Part shown: piece by piece, positions 34,953-39,792 of the stretch
How the letters are laid out: each line of letters begins with the position of its first letter
Numbering within the stretch: the stretch's first letter is position 1
Source: Neotamlana laminarinivorans
GTDB taxonomy: Bacteria > Bacteroidota > Bacteroidia > Flavobacteriales > Flavobacteriaceae
Assembly: GCF_020523925.1 (NCBI RefSeq)
Contig: NZ_JAJAPW010000003.1
Coordinates: 496,001-560,000, forward strand
DNA: 64,000 nucleotides
Direction of reading: 5' to 3'
The notes under the pieces: model-generated
Seen by the model: the letters and a program-made list of their open reading frames with translations, nothing else
Database searches by the model: none
Told to the model about the DNA's origin: nothing
Translations under genes and position numbers: made by a program

Positions 34953-35642
34953 TTAGCGGTTTAAGCGTTTTGCTTTTGGGGATATAATCAACAAATGAAT
35001 TAAAATTAAAGAGAAGGCATAAACCGAATCCTCAATAGGGATGGTAAATAACCGGATACCTAAATTCTCTTCGTTATTATACCAAACGACTTCATTGTCA
35101 ATAAAACTTCCTGTTAATACACCATTAACGATAAAAAAGGGAATTAACATAACCAAAAAGGTTAATAAGTACTGTTGCAAAATGTTTGGGGATTTTAAAA
35201 GCGTGAAAGCCATGAGGAACGCGCCCAATAAAAAATTAATTAGGGTATACCATTTATCCCAATTATATACAGCAATACCTAAAAATATTAGGCATAAAAT
35301 AAAGCCTATAGCTGTACTTAAGGGTTTTTGTAGTGCTATTTTTGGAAAATAATATAAGAGTGCAAAATGTGTAAAGACACAGGCATACGGAATGCAAATA
35401 AAAAACAACCATTCTTCTATGGGTAAATTAAAAATGGTAATACCCAGATAATAATCGGGGTTAAAACCCCAGATGTTATAATGGGTAAAAAGAATATCCC
35501 AAGGGATAAAAACAATAAAATTAACAGCTATACCAATAAATAAAGGCTTCCAAAGGGTGTGAAATTTTAGTTTGGGGTGAAAACTGTAAAGAAAAGGAAT
35601 AGAAAAGGAGCCTAAATTTAATAATAAATATAAGTAAGGCAT
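34953..35642 (-). CDS. Lycopene cyclase, fused CrtYc-CrtYd type
   Basis: A 229-residue membrane protein with about seven helices and no flavin-binding motif, i.e. the heterodimer-type carotenoid cyclase fused into one chain. Both halves keep the family's P-x-E-(E/D) site: LPIEEWLFF at 73-81 and IPIEDSVYAF near residue 205. It should form the beta-ionone rings of beta-carotene from lycopene in the inner membrane. Its ATG comes directly after the stop of the CrtZ gene, with no bases between, and it is the last gene of the crtI-crtB-crtZ operon. Confidence 0.88.
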   Translation of the reverse strand: MPYLYLLLNLGSFSIPFLYSFHPKLKFHTLWKPLFIGIAVNFIVFIPWDILFTHYNIWGFNPDYYLGITIFNLPIEEWLFFICIPYACVFTHFALLYYFPKIALQKPLSTAIGFILCLIFLGIAVYNWDKWYTLINFLLGAFLMAFTLLKSPNILQQYLLTFLVMLIPFFIVNGVLTGSFIDNEVVWYNNEENLGIRLFTIPIEDSVYAFSLILIHLLIISPKAKRLNR

Positions 35643-36095
35643 TTATTTAGTTTTGAAGTATTTAAAAGGAACCAAAAGCATTCCAAAGCATTCGCCATCT
35701 TCCTTCCCTATATGCTTATGATGCATTTTATGTGCGCGCCTAACGCCTTTGGCATATCTATTATTAGCGTTGCGAAGGAGTTTGAAACGCTGATGTATAA
35801 AAATGTCGTGTACAATAAAATAACATAGCCCGTATGCAAAAATACCTAAGCCAATAGGGAGGCCAGCCCAAAAACTAGTGTATTTCCAAAGTAAGAAAAA
35901 GCCAATACTTACAACGGCATAAAATAAAAAGAAAGCATCATTGCGCTCAAACCAACTATCATGATCTTTTTTGTGATGGTCTTGGTGTAAGTGCCATAAA
36001 AAGCCATGCATAATGTATTTATGGGTAAACCACGCCATAAATTCCATAAAACAAAAAGTGCCTAAAAAAATAAGAATCCAGTATAATAAGTGCAT
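35643..36095 (-). CDS. crtZ: Beta-carotene hydroxylase
   Basis: A 150-residue di-iron membrane hydroxylase of the CrtZ type (fatty acid hydroxylase superfamily). The His-box set is complete: HKYIMH (25-30), HLHQDHH (35-41), HDIFIH in the middle and HKMHHKH near residue 130. It should add 3- and 3'-hydroxyls to beta-carotene, giving zeaxanthin. It lies ten bases after CrtB and abuts the cyclase gene, so the operon encodes the steps from geranylgeranyl diphosphate to zeaxanthin apart from the GGPP synthase. Confidence 0.92.
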   Translation of the reverse strand: MHLLYWILIFLGTFCFMEFMAWFTHKYIMHGFLWHLHQDHHKKDHDSWFERNDAFFLFYAVVSIGFFLLWKYTSFWAGLPIGLGIFAYGLCYFIVHDIFIHQRFKLLRNANNRYAKGVRRAHKMHHKHIGKEDGECFGMLLVPFKYFKTK

Positions 36096-36105
36096 AACAT
36101 TAATA

Positions 36106-36945
36106 TTATAATAAATTTAATTGATATTTGACATAACTACGCATTAAAAGTTCTATTTTTTTAGGATTAGAAACTCGAATTCTAGAATCTTTAATTTTTA
36201 AGGCGGGGGTGTCTTTAAGTTTCTCTAATAATTGTTTGTAATACCTGTATGCTGTAAACACCCCAAATCTCGCTTCTATGGGGAGCTTTTTTATACCCTG
36301 TAACCCCTTTTCAAAATCCTGTTCAATATCCTTGATAATATCTTGTTTAGATAGCTCATTTAAATTGCTAAGATCTGTATTAGGAAAATAACTGCGGTTT
36401 AGTAAATCGTAATCCGCTTTTAAATCTCTTAAAAAGTTTACTTTTTGAAAGGCAGACCCCAAGGCCATAGCCGTATCTTTTAAGGCGTCATATTTGTCTT
36501 GGTCTCCGTTTACAAATACTTTTAAACACATTAAACCAACCACATCGGCAGAACCATAAATATAGGTTTTAAATTCTTCCTGTGTTAAATAAGTGCTTTT
36601 ATGTAAATCGGTTTTCATGCTATGCATAAAAGCATCAACAAGCTCCTTGTCTAAATCATATTTATGGTATGTGTACTGGAATGCATTTAAAATAGGATTT
36701 AAACTTATTTTGTGTTCCAAGGCTAACTCTAAATCCTCATGAAATTTATTAAAAAGTTGCTCTTGTTGGTAATCATGAAAAGAATCAACAATTTCATCAG
36801 CAAAGCGTACAAAGCCATAAATATTATAAATATCGTTTCTAATGCTCTTATATAGCATTTTTGTGGCTAGAGAAAACGAAGTACTGTAGGTCTGAGTTAC
36901 TAACTTGCTGGAGCTGTAAGAGACATGGTCGAATAATGTTTTCAT
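36106..36945 (-). CDS. crtB: Phytoene synthase
   Basis: A 279-residue squalene/phytoene synthase that joins two geranylgeranyl diphosphates into phytoene. The first Asp-rich motif is FADEIVDSF near residue 48, and the second is VNFLRDLKADYD near residue 190. YIYGSADVVGLMCLKVF and the early YSTSFSLATKML are also family segments. Its ATG overlaps the CrtI stop as ATGA, so production of the two enzymes is coupled. Confidence 0.93.
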   Translation of the reverse strand: MKTLFDHVSYSSSKLVTQTYSTSFSLATKMLYKSIRNDIYNIYGFVRFADEIVDSFHDYQQEQLFNKFHEDLELALEHKISLNPILNAFQYTYHKYDLDKELVDAFMHSMKTDLHKSTYLTQEEFKTYIYGSADVVGLMCLKVFVNGDQDKYDALKDTAMALGSAFQKVNFLRDLKADYDLLNRSYFPNTDLSNLNELSKQDIIKDIEQDFEKGLQGIKKLPIEARFGVFTAYRYYKQLLEKLKDTPALKIKDSRIRVSNPKKIELLMRSYVKYQLNLL

Positions 36946-38408
36946 AAGGAATGATATTTATTAACTAAATCGGCAACCAATTTTCCTGATATTAAGGAAG
37001 GAGGGACGCCAGGACCAGGTACAGTTAATTGACCTGTGAAATATAAATTTTTGACGGTTTTACTCTTGAGTTTAGGTCGTAAAAAAGCGGTTTGTAAAAG
37101 AGTATTAGCCATACCATACGCATTGCCTTTATAGGAATTATAATCTTTTATAAAATCGTTGACACAAAAACTTTCCTTTAAGATAATACTTTTTTTAACA
37201 TCTTGATTAGTAAGGTGTTCAAATCGGGAAATTATTTTATCAAAATACAAATCCCTAAGTTCAGGGGTGTCCTCTAGCCCTGGGGCTAACGGAATTAAAA
37301 AAATACCAGCTTCTTGACCTTCAGGGGCGGCATGTGAATCAGTTTTACTAGGGAAACTAGCATAAAATAATGGAGATTCAGGCCATTTCGGATCGTCGTA
37401 AATAGCCTTGGCATGTACATCGAAATCAACATCAAAAAATAAAGTGTGATGGTTGACGTGATTTAATTTTTTATTAAAGCCTACATAAAAAAGTAGCGAA
37501 GAAGGAGCAAAGGTTTTTTTGTCCCAATAAGCTTCAGAATATTGTCTGTACTCAGGTTTTAATAAAGTTTCGCTGTGATGGTAATCGGCACCACTAATAA
37601 TAATATCTGCAAAATGTTTTTGACCTCGGGATTCAATGCCAATAGCACTGCCGTTGTTTACAATAATGTTATCAACAGGGTGATTAGTGTAAATACTAAC
37701 TCCTAACGCTTTAGCAAGGCTTTGTATGCCTAGTATAACTTCATACATCCCTTTTTTAGGATGAAAGGTGCCAAGGCCAAAATCAGCATAATTCATAAAG
37801 TTATAAAAGGAAGGGGTATCACTGGGTTTGGCGCCCAGAAATAATACAGGAAATTCAAGGATTTGAATGAGCTTTTTATTTTTAAAAGCCTTCCTCACAT
37901 CGCGTTTAATAGTGCTAAAAAACTGATTAAGTTTTTTTATGGTTGCAGGAGTTATAAGCTCCAATGGCGATTCTCCAGGGTTATAAACTAAGTCCTTAAT
38001 AGCGATATTATAATTGCTTTGTGCTTGATCTATAAATTTTTGAAGTTTTTTGGCGCTGCCTTGTTCCTCGTTTTCAAACGCTATTTTTATTTTTTCCAGA
38101 GTATCTTCAATGGTAATAAAATCATGTTTACCAAAATAAACGCTGTAAGCCGGGTTTAATTTTTCTAGACGGTAGTAGTCTGATGGCGTTTTATTGAAAT
38201 CAGCAAAAAAACGCTCAAAAACATCGGGCATCCAATACCATGTGGGGCCAATATCAAAGGTAAAGCCATCTTTTTTTAATTGTCTGGCACGACCGCCTAC
38301 GTTGGCATTTTTCTCAAAAATACTAACCTCATACCCTTGTTTAGCTAAGTAGCACGAGGCGGCTAACGACGAAAAACCAGAGCCTATAATATGTATTGTT
38401 TTCTTCAT
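36942..38408 (-). CDS. crtI: Phytoene desaturase
   Basis: A 488-residue FAD-dependent desaturase converting phytoene to lycopene. The dinucleotide-binding motif IHIIGSGFSSLAASCYLAKQ opens the protein, with EKNANVGGRARQL behind it. The conserved C-terminal FAD site is FTGQLTVPGPGVPPSLISGK. It is the first gene of the carotenoid operon. The start is fixed by the FAD motif, and a TAnnTTTG box ends only seven bases upstream of the ATG. The mRNA may therefore be leaderless or nearly so. A candidate operator overlaps that box. Confidence 0.95.
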   Translation of the reverse strand: MKKTIHIIGSGFSSLAASCYLAKQGYEVSIFEKNANVGGRARQLKKDGFTFDIGPTWYWMPDVFERFFADFNKTPSDYYRLEKLNPAYSVYFGKHDFITIEDTLEKIKIAFENEEQGSAKKLQKFIDQAQSNYNIAIKDLVYNPGESPLELITPATIKKLNQFFSTIKRDVRKAFKNKKLIQILEFPVLFLGAKPSDTPSFYNFMNYADFGLGTFHPKKGMYEVILGIQSLAKALGVSIYTNHPVDNIIVNNGSAIGIESRGQKHFADIIISGADYHHSETLLKPEYRQYSEAYWDKKTFAPSSLLFYVGFNKKLNHVNHHTLFFDVDFDVHAKAIYDDPKWPESPLFYASFPSKTDSHAAPEGQEAGIFLIPLAPGLEDTPELRDLYFDKIISRFEHLTNQDVKKSIILKESFCVNDFIKDYNSYKGNAYGMANTLLQTAFLRPKLKSKTVKNLYFTGQLTVPGPGVPPSLISGKLVADLVNKYHSL

Positions 38409-38438
38409 TGTTTAACAAATATACAAAAAAGTTAAACA
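38409..38438 (-). promoter_or_regulatory. crtI promoter with overlapping inverted repeat (candidate LitR/CarH operator)
   Basis: On the minus strand the -7 box TATATTTG covers 38423 to 38416. TGTTTAAC (38409-38416) and GTTAAACA (38431-38438) are a perfect 8-bp inverted repeat with a 14-base spacer. One arm abuts the crtI ATG and touches the -7 box; the other lies between the -33 and -7 regions. The -33 position has no TTG. The layout fits repression by a dimeric or tetrameric MerR-type protein, most simply the B12-binding regulator encoded 42 bases upstream. Confidence 0.55.
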
Positions 38439-38449
38439 TAAATAGGTTT

Positions 38450-39346
38450 TTATAAATTGTTTACTAAACTTTCTATGGAGGTAAAACGCGTTATGGAATC
38501 TGGAAAGTTGTCGTCCTTAATGATGTCCAGTTTTTTACCCAATAAATAAAGCTGATTACCACCGTGTAATAGCAGGGTTTCAAATTGATGAATATAATCA
38601 TTTAATTTATCATCTTCAGGAAAAATGGTGAGATAAGAAATAAAAGTAACGGGTTGATAAAAATCTAAAACATAACGTAAGTTATCCATAGGAACGCTTT
38701 CACCTAAAAAAATAGAGTGGTAACCCTTGCTTCGAAGCTGATAATTTATAAATAGCAATCCAATATCATGGATTTCGTTCTCAGGCAAAAATAAAATAAA
38801 GGTTTTGGTGTCTGGTTGGGGTTCTAGTAACTGTAGGCGCTCTATATTTAAAAGTATCTTCTGTTTAATATGAATGGATAAAAAATGCTCATGGGCAGGA
38901 GTAATGGTATTAGTTTGCCATAGTACACCAATATGATTTAACAGGGGTAAAAAAATGGTGTAAAAAATAGTACTAAAGCTTTTAGTTTCAATTAAAGTAT
39001 TATAGGTGTTGTAAAAAAGGACTTGATCAAAATTAATCATGGCAATTTTAAAAGCATTTATAGCATGATCTTCGATATCTGCTCGCGATGCAATTTCTCT
39101 AACTTTAATATTAATGTCTTGATCAGAAAGATTGGCGATTTTAGAGATCTTGATACCATTTTTGTTTAAATAAGAAATATTGAGTAATTTTTGTAAACTG
39201 TCTAAGCTGTAGGTTCTAATATTGGTATCAGTTCGACTTGGGGAAAGAAGATTATAGCGTTTTTCCCAAATACGTATGGTATGAGCTTTTATATTGCTAA
39301 GATTTTCTAAATCTTTAATGCTAAAATTAGTTTTAATGTTGTTCAT
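38450..39346 (-). CDS. MerR family regulator with B12-binding domain (CarH/LitR-like photoreceptor)
   Basis: A 298-residue regulator when started at the ATG read from 39346. A longer frame would begin with TTG at 39370, inside the promoter. The N-terminal MerR helix-turn-helix is FSIKDLENLSNIKAHTIRIW. The cobalamin-binding part has the CarH-type W-x9-EH motif (W143, E153-H154 in WQTNTITPAHEH) and an E-x-H-x-x-G motif with the lower-ligand histidine (ENEIHDIG, H193). Proteins of this family bind adenosylcobalamin in the dark, repress carotenoid genes and release DNA in light. Its place directly upstream of crtI supports that role here. The photochemistry itself is inferred. Confidence 0.87.
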   Translation of the reverse strand: MNNIKTNFSIKDLENLSNIKAHTIRIWEKRYNLLSPSRTDTNIRTYSLDSLQKLLNISYLNKNGIKISKIANLSDQDINIKVREIASRADIEDHAINAFKIAMINFDQVLFYNTYNTLIETKSFSTIFYTIFLPLLNHIGVLWQTNTITPAHEHFLSIHIKQKILLNIERLQLLEPQPDTKTFILFLPENEIHDIGLLFINYQLRSKGYHSIFLGESVPMDNLRYVLDFYQPVTFISYLTIFPEDDKLNDYIHQFETLLLHGGNQLYLLGKKLDIIKDDNFPDSITRFTSIESLVNNL

Positions 39347-39792
39347 CTTATGAGAGATTATGTTCAACAAAAATAATATATAATATTGAATTGAATAGCT
39401 TTTATTGATTTTCTTAAGCTGAAAGTCTCATAAACCAGGTTTTAATGGGCTGAAGTGAACCTGAATAGTCGTTTAAGAGCTTAATTTCAAGACAAGGCTG
39501 TTTGGTCATAATTAGTTCTTGTAGTTTTGTTGCGTTAAAAAGAGGGGCTTAGGCTTAAATTTAAGAAAGACTAAAAAGGTATTTTAACGAAAATAACAGC
39601 GCTGTGTAGAAAATTTATTCAACATAAAATTTTTCTACGTTCATTTGTACACGTCAACAAATAAATAAGACACTCAAATTTGATTAATAGCAAAAAAAAT
39701 TTGGTGAATTAGTTTAGTGAATTCTGATTTTACCAAAAATAAAACATACCCTATCTGGTTTTAACTAGGTAAAAAATAGTTGAAGTTGCTAT
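39347..39792. other. 446-base intergenic region between the photoregulator and the priming transferase
   Basis: On the minus strand it holds TATTTTTG (39367-39374), the likely -7 box of the MerR/B12 gene, followed by the half-site GTTGAACA (39361-39368), which resembles the crtI operator arms. The part from 39545 to 39692 carries the block set shared with the wzc upstream region. The remaining 100 bases before the plus-strand ATG are AT-rich with no clear RBS or coding frame. Confidence 0.55.
39545..39692 (+). promoter_or_regulatory. Shared exopolysaccharide leader module, copy A
   Basis: Five blocks occur in order here and again upstream of wzc: GGGCTTAGG (39545), TAAGAAAGACT (39562), AACGAAAATAACAGCG (39586), TTCTACGTTCATTTGTA (39633) and GATTAATAGCA (39682). 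The distance from the third block to the TTCATTTGTA core (39640) is 54 bases in both copies. The TTCATTTG part resembles a TTnnTTTG variant of the -7 box. It lies 101 bases before the priming-transferase ATG. Interpretation as a common promoter/leader is inference. Confidence 0.6.

Follow-up and report, generated by a model that had tools for sequence, protein, structure and literature searches.

In Neotamlana laminarinivorans, an inverted repeat between a gene for a MerR/B12 protein and crtI probably serves as the operator of that adjacent protein, a class I CarH/LitR-type regulator predicted to repress a photoprotection regulon, and its own gene, in the dark. We put the probability of this reading at roughly three in four. 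Sequence comparison between genomes backs the operator, the protein assigned to it and its target genes; binding, the role of adenosylcobalamin (AdoCbl), the direction of control and the response to light are extrapolated from the CarH family, and the 5' end of the transcript is a prediction. The locus lies in a 64,000-nucleotide stretch of contig NZ_JAJAPW010000003.1, referred to here as the window, and coordinates are those of the window unless a genome or locus is named (Table 1).

The start of the regulator gene is most likely the ATG at 39346 and not the TTG at 39370 of the mechanically called reading frame, because the family aligns from MNNI, and the crtI start codon cannot lie much further downstream than annotated because the FAD motif begins at about residue 7. 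Between the two genes is a gap of 41 bp that holds both the operator and the -7 box of crtI. The earlier note had described an inverted repeat framing a crtI -7 box that ends seven bases from the ATG, and the sequence bears this out (38409-38438): on the minus strand, TGTTTAAC and GTTAAACA are the 8-bp arms of a perfect inverted repeat around a spacer of 14 bp, the last G of the TATATTTG box is also part of the right arm, and seven bases separate the end of the box from the crtI ATG at 38408. The site encloses the -7 box and overlaps the promoter of a crt gene. A search for TGTTTAAC-N10-18-GTTAAACA gave one match in the window and none in 100 shuffles, and in the 3.6-Mb genome there were two matches, including the crtI site. 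The other genomic match (C81:218201, spacer 16) was rejected as an operator, as it sits inside a coding repeat.

Table 1. Features of the regulator-crtI locus and of related loci outside the family.
Feature	Position	Strand	Basis
Putative crtI operator, TGTTTAAC-N14-GTTAAACA	38409..38438; left arm 38438-38431, right arm 38416-38409	-	sequence and conservation in relatives
crtI -7 box, TATATTTG	38416..38423	-	sequence; sigma-A consensus TAnnTTTG (PMC9723704)
Predicted 3-nt crtI 5' leader, +1 at 38411	38409..38411	-	inferred from box position -12..-5 (PMC9723704)
Putative operator of the regulator gene, TGTTGAAC-N14-GATGAACA	39340..39369; right arm 39347-39340	-	sequence and conservation
-7 box of the regulator gene, TATTTTTG, overlapping left operator arm TGTTGAAC	39368..39375	-	sequence
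MerR/B12 regulator, CarH/LitR-like, 298 aa	38450..39346	-	Pfam MerR_1 and B12-binding_2; CarH by phmmer; predicted fold
crtI, phytoene desaturase	36942..38408	-	ORF and Pfam
crtB, phytoene synthase, downstream of crtI in the same direction	36106..36945	-	ORF and Pfam
Fatty-acid-hydroxylase family protein, probable crtZ	35643..36095	-	ORF and Pfam
Lycopene cyclase	34953..35642	-	ORF and Pfam
ECF sigma gene beside a MerR/B12 gene, same operator (examples among L171-L190)	L172:1717-2229, L183:1649-2149, L189:2069-2605		

The earlier note had made its proposal depend on the repeat being conserved where genomes share the gene pair, and there it proved strongly conserved, with the 14-bp spacer. In 80 Flavobacteriaceae loci gathered with the regulator protein as query, the crtI operator is present in about 45, always with a spacer of 14 bp. 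Almost all loci with more than ~35 bp between regulator and crtI have the word at the end of that gap, 0-6 bp ahead of the crtI ATG; in those with a short gap (Maribacter, Zunongwangia, Christiangramia and others), regulator and crtI look like one operon, and the site precedes the regulator instead. The arms of the crtI sites hardly change, in contrast to the central part of the spacer and the flanking bases, which vary; in one locus (L023) both arms are altered symmetrically, CGTCTAAC...GTTAGACA. Of 13 further crtI sites, 12 have the -7 box at the equivalent place. The published sigma-A box of Flavobacterium psychrophilum occupies -12 to -5, and leaderless transcripts make up 5.5% of its mRNAs (PMC9723704). 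Because of this box position, transcription of crtI is predicted to start at 38411, and a near-leaderless mRNA with a leader of ~3 nt would fit the published arrangement. By the same analogy, predicted crtI leaders across the relatives run from 3 to ~9 nt and those of the TetR-type targets to roughly 10-20 nt.

Autoregulation had been suggested from a single arm following the TATTTTTG box of the regulator gene. The partner arm, GATGAACA, is present as well; it coincides with the start codon and codons 2-3, again after a spacer of 14 bp. The regulator's own promoter thus carries a complete operator whose end falls in the start codon, which supports autoregulation better than the earlier note knew. 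This arrangement is kept in at least 71 of 81 Flavobacteriaceae loci. In 66 of them the regulator start reads TGTTTAAC-N14-nATGAACA with unchanged spacing, and codon 2 is AAC in all 66, compared with 517 of 1629 Asn codons in the bodies of the genes. In five further loci, of the Christiangramia/Gillisia kind, the DNA word survives as ATGGAACA and the start codon has moved by 1 bp; their regulators begin Met-Glu-His, so that the DNA is retained and the first residues have changed. At locus L004 the start codon has changed and the operator arm is retained. The AAC bias, the shifted start codon and the L004 case are signs of selection on the DNA and lend support to autoregulation.

The regulator combines an N-terminal MerR winged-helix domain (PF13411, MerR_1, E 4.9e-14) with a four-helix cobalamin subdomain (PF02607, B12-binding_2, E 1.1e-7), and the two cobalamin motifs by which it was first linked to CarH/LitR are present, W-x9-EH at residues 143-154 and E-x-H-x-x-G at 191-196. 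A phmmer search with the protein retrieves CarH. The best solved match of a structure model built on 27 sequences (pLDDT 86) is also CarH, with a Z score of 17.5 and an rmsd of 2.6 A over 195 aligned residues for the cobalamin domain, above methionine synthase (MetH) and AppA. Motif and predicted fold together indicate a Rossmann cobalamin subdomain with its lower-ligand His, and the model holds a complete two-part cobalamin domain, setting the protein apart from class II LitR, which has the helical half only. In the family alignment the usual GG motif lacks a conserved second Gly. W143, E153 and His193 are invariant there and His154 nearly so; they correspond to W131, E141, H177 and H142 of CarH, which are key AdoCbl residues (PMC11796333). 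G-x-x-W-x9-EH is found in 75 of 79 family loci and in all 20 class loci outside Flavobacteriaceae, and E-x-H-x-x-G in 78 of the 79 family loci. The earlier assignment to CarH/LitR holds by sequence (phmmer, alignment) and by predicted fold, and membership of class I is well supported.

The regulator might nevertheless bind the operator and control the regulon while responding, instead of to light through AdoCbl, to another ligand, to redox state or to a photoreceptor partner such as the LOV protein of class II LitR (PMC9758184). We regard this as unlikely, although it is the alternative that survives best. Loss of AdoCbl light sensing would be in keeping with the Rossmann domain falling below the Pfam threshold (the Rossmann-type B12-binding model gave no match at E 0.001 in the regulator), with the replacement of EH by EN in four family loci and a broken E-x-H-x-x-G in one, and with a Gln in place of His132 of Thermus thermophilus CarH, a His that is not family-defining and whose counterpart, Q144, is invariant in the family alignment. 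On the other side are the full cobalamin domain of the model, which fits CarH better than MetH or AppA, the near invariance of W, E, H and the lower-ligand His in the family, and a cobalamin adenosyltransferase gene in the organism's own genome. Only one other protein encoded there has a helical B12 domain, and it is MetH-like by size.

Light-induced pigments and photorepair are common in marine Bacteroidota. The sites examined lie almost without exception between genes, mostly 1-70 bp before photoprotection genes. Recurrent targets are crtI, a TetR-ABC1-flavin reductase-SDR-cryptochrome-DPRP-photolyase cluster, and a 142-aa gene followed by DUF2805; fasciclin lipoproteins, GLPGLI-type proteins, TspO and a desaturase are further ones. 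A scan of the organism's own genome, limited to at most one mismatch (with two, 11 sites were found against 11 for the reversed control), returned four sites, at crtI, at two photolyase-region promoters 8.6 kb apart and at fasciclin. Before some fasciclin genes two operator copies lie ~42 bp apart (L106:2003-2074, L121:2144-2215), suggesting paired binding. The TetR-type gene of the photolyase cluster has one in-frame TAA in the alignment in five genomes (G026, G103, G107, G118, G120), perhaps through decay or as an alignment-edge effect.

Relative to the left end of the site (0-based), the -7 box TAnnTTTG takes three positions: -6 at the regulator, 15 at crtI, fasciclin and GLPGLI genes, and 35 at the TetR and 142-aa genes, the box before TetR often being degenerate at its last base. 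The steps of 21 and 20 bp each amount to about two helical turns. Classical MerR activators, for comparison, have their operator at a fixed place inside a 19-bp promoter spacer. The regulator has a DNA-binding domain of the MerR family and could on that ground be an activator that twists a long promoter spacer, and not a dark repressor. This is improbable given the three box positions, as twisting needs one fixed geometry and steric repression does not, and the single operator place within a 19-bp spacer is not what these promoters present. In all three, bound protein would lie across promoter DNA, an arrangement that suits steric repression better than MerR activation of fixed geometry.

Counts across genomes point to the MerR/B12 protein as the owner of the site. 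The survey covered 149 genomes, one per genus, with the pattern TGTTTARY-N14-RTTAAACA and its reversal as control, and gave 295 occurrences against 10 for the control. Spacers of 15-18 gave ~8 per spacing, together ~32 against 22 for their own control, which is near background. Two genomes (G077:C5:34775, G119:C120:57247) have an operator of spacer 15 next to the regulator and retain the TATATTTG box. Of 111 genomes that encode a close homologue of the regulator, 104 have sites (in the other seven a search for the exact site found none); so do two of nine with only a distant homologue and three of 29 without any, these three being only 73-81% complete. Fisher's test of site against regulator gives p of ~1e-18 to 1e-21, a value that overstates independence as the genera are related. 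Another regulon-wide factor, such as the TetR-family protein of the photolyase cluster, would be a competitor, the site preceding the TetR gene in most genomes examined. Tested against the counts, TetR ownership was rejected and is now highly improbable: sites are present in 23 of 25 genomes with the MerR but not the TetR gene and in three of nine with the reverse combination, so that the site tracks the MerR/B12 gene. The MerR gene, moreover, has the site in its own start codon, and in other families, where the fetched stretch has no TetR gene, it adjoins the MerR gene. That the repeat is a mere AT-rich promoter feature or a chance palindrome, as the low GC content of the genome and the nearly palindromic core of the arm might suggest, has a negligible chance of being right and is already refuted by the ~30-fold excess over the reversed control, confined to spacer 14 and to regulator-bearing genomes.

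Under the favoured reading, of a CarH-like dark repressor at its own operator, the AdoCbl-bound regulator would in the dark occupy TGTTTAAC-N14-GTTAAACA and thereby cover the crtI -7 box and start site, and the second operator copy, ending in the start codon, would let it cover its own promoter as well. In light the Co-C bond would break and the regulator leave the DNA. The crt genes, the regulator and the photolyase/cryptochrome/fasciclin regulon would then be transcribed, crtI with a leader of ~3 nt, and newly made repressor would reset the system in the dark.

The regulator and its operator extend beyond Flavobacteriaceae. The regulator is encoded in 184 of 295 Bacteroidia genomes and the operator word is found in 123, the reversed control giving ~17 by a count made by eye. 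From other families, 20 loci were then fetched, chosen for having listed sites close to the regulator. The regulators of these loci are only ~31-48% identical over the aligned part, and even so the site stands beside the regulator. At many of them the next gene encodes an ECF sigma factor (confirmed with Pfam in three), and several of these loci continue with crtI-crtB or crtB; an ECF gene under the operator could constitute a light-to-sigma relay. At others the neighbours of the site include crtI, GTP cyclohydrolase or cryptochrome genes. GTP cyclohydrolase I genes adjoin the regulator or the site (L171:1966-2637, L173:3631-4347), as in the Pseudomonas LitR regulon, and may be connected with photolyase antenna pterin. 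The balance leans, with less assurance than for the locus itself, towards a class-wide B12 light regulon of the Bacteroidia built on one operator word. Its reader would be CarH-like and work in an inverted geometry undescribed for CarH, with the -7 box at three places about two helical turns apart and one operator copy in regulator start codons, and outside Flavobacteriaceae the operator would often gate an ECF sigma relay to carotenoid genes.

A 30-bp word, its protein and a list of targets make light control testable in hundreds of genomes, and they would link vitamin B12, which many of these bacteria may need to import, to protection from sunlight. They also suggest a cobalamin photoreceptor whose operator geometry is unlike that of the solved CarH complex. 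The literature on Bacteroidetes light regulons and operators that we searched, in which subscription papers were mostly outside reach, yielded no light-responsive operator for the phylum and no description of this one. What is new, as far as that literature goes, is the inverted operator with its 14-bp spacer, its position within the regulator start codon, a regulon spanning the Bacteroidia and the link to ECF sigma genes. A MerR gene has been noted, and left unstudied, in the myxol cluster of Nonlabens spongiae (PMC11855829); like the present gene it heads a flavobacterial crt cluster, but no operator, light response or regulon is described there. MliR of Bizionia (PMC9478572), which is without an effector domain, was dropped as a comparison.

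The class II LitR proteins of Pseudomonas, PplR1 and PmlR2, resemble the present system in their photolyase, cryptochrome and GTP cyclohydrolase regulon (PMC9758184) and in arms of the TGT...ACA type (theirs TGTACA-N12-TGTACA). They differ in arm sequence and spacing, and in keeping the helical B12 half only and using a LOV protein. Myxococcus xanthus CarA/CarH repress carotenoid genes from a promoter-overlapping operator, and an ECF sigma factor (CarQ) takes part in M. xanthus light control; in the Bacteroidia the ECF gene is the regulator's immediate neighbour and stands under an operator of the same kind. The closest counterparts are CarH of T. thermophilus and CarH (LitR) of Bacillus megaterium, which share the MerR and two-part cobalamin domains, the W-x9-EH and E-x-H-x-x-G motifs, the linkage to crt genes and an operator that overlaps the promoter. 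The T. thermophilus operator consists of three direct 11-bp repeats, nAnnTnnACAn (PMC8156234), and its T-n-n-ACA core recurs in the half-sites described here. The three or four tandem 11-bp direct repeats of those two systems, a trait that does not define the family, are replaced here by inverted arms around a 14-bp spacer, and the Gln for His132, the photolyase-rich regulon and the second operator in the regulator's start codon further set the flavobacterial system apart from CarH.
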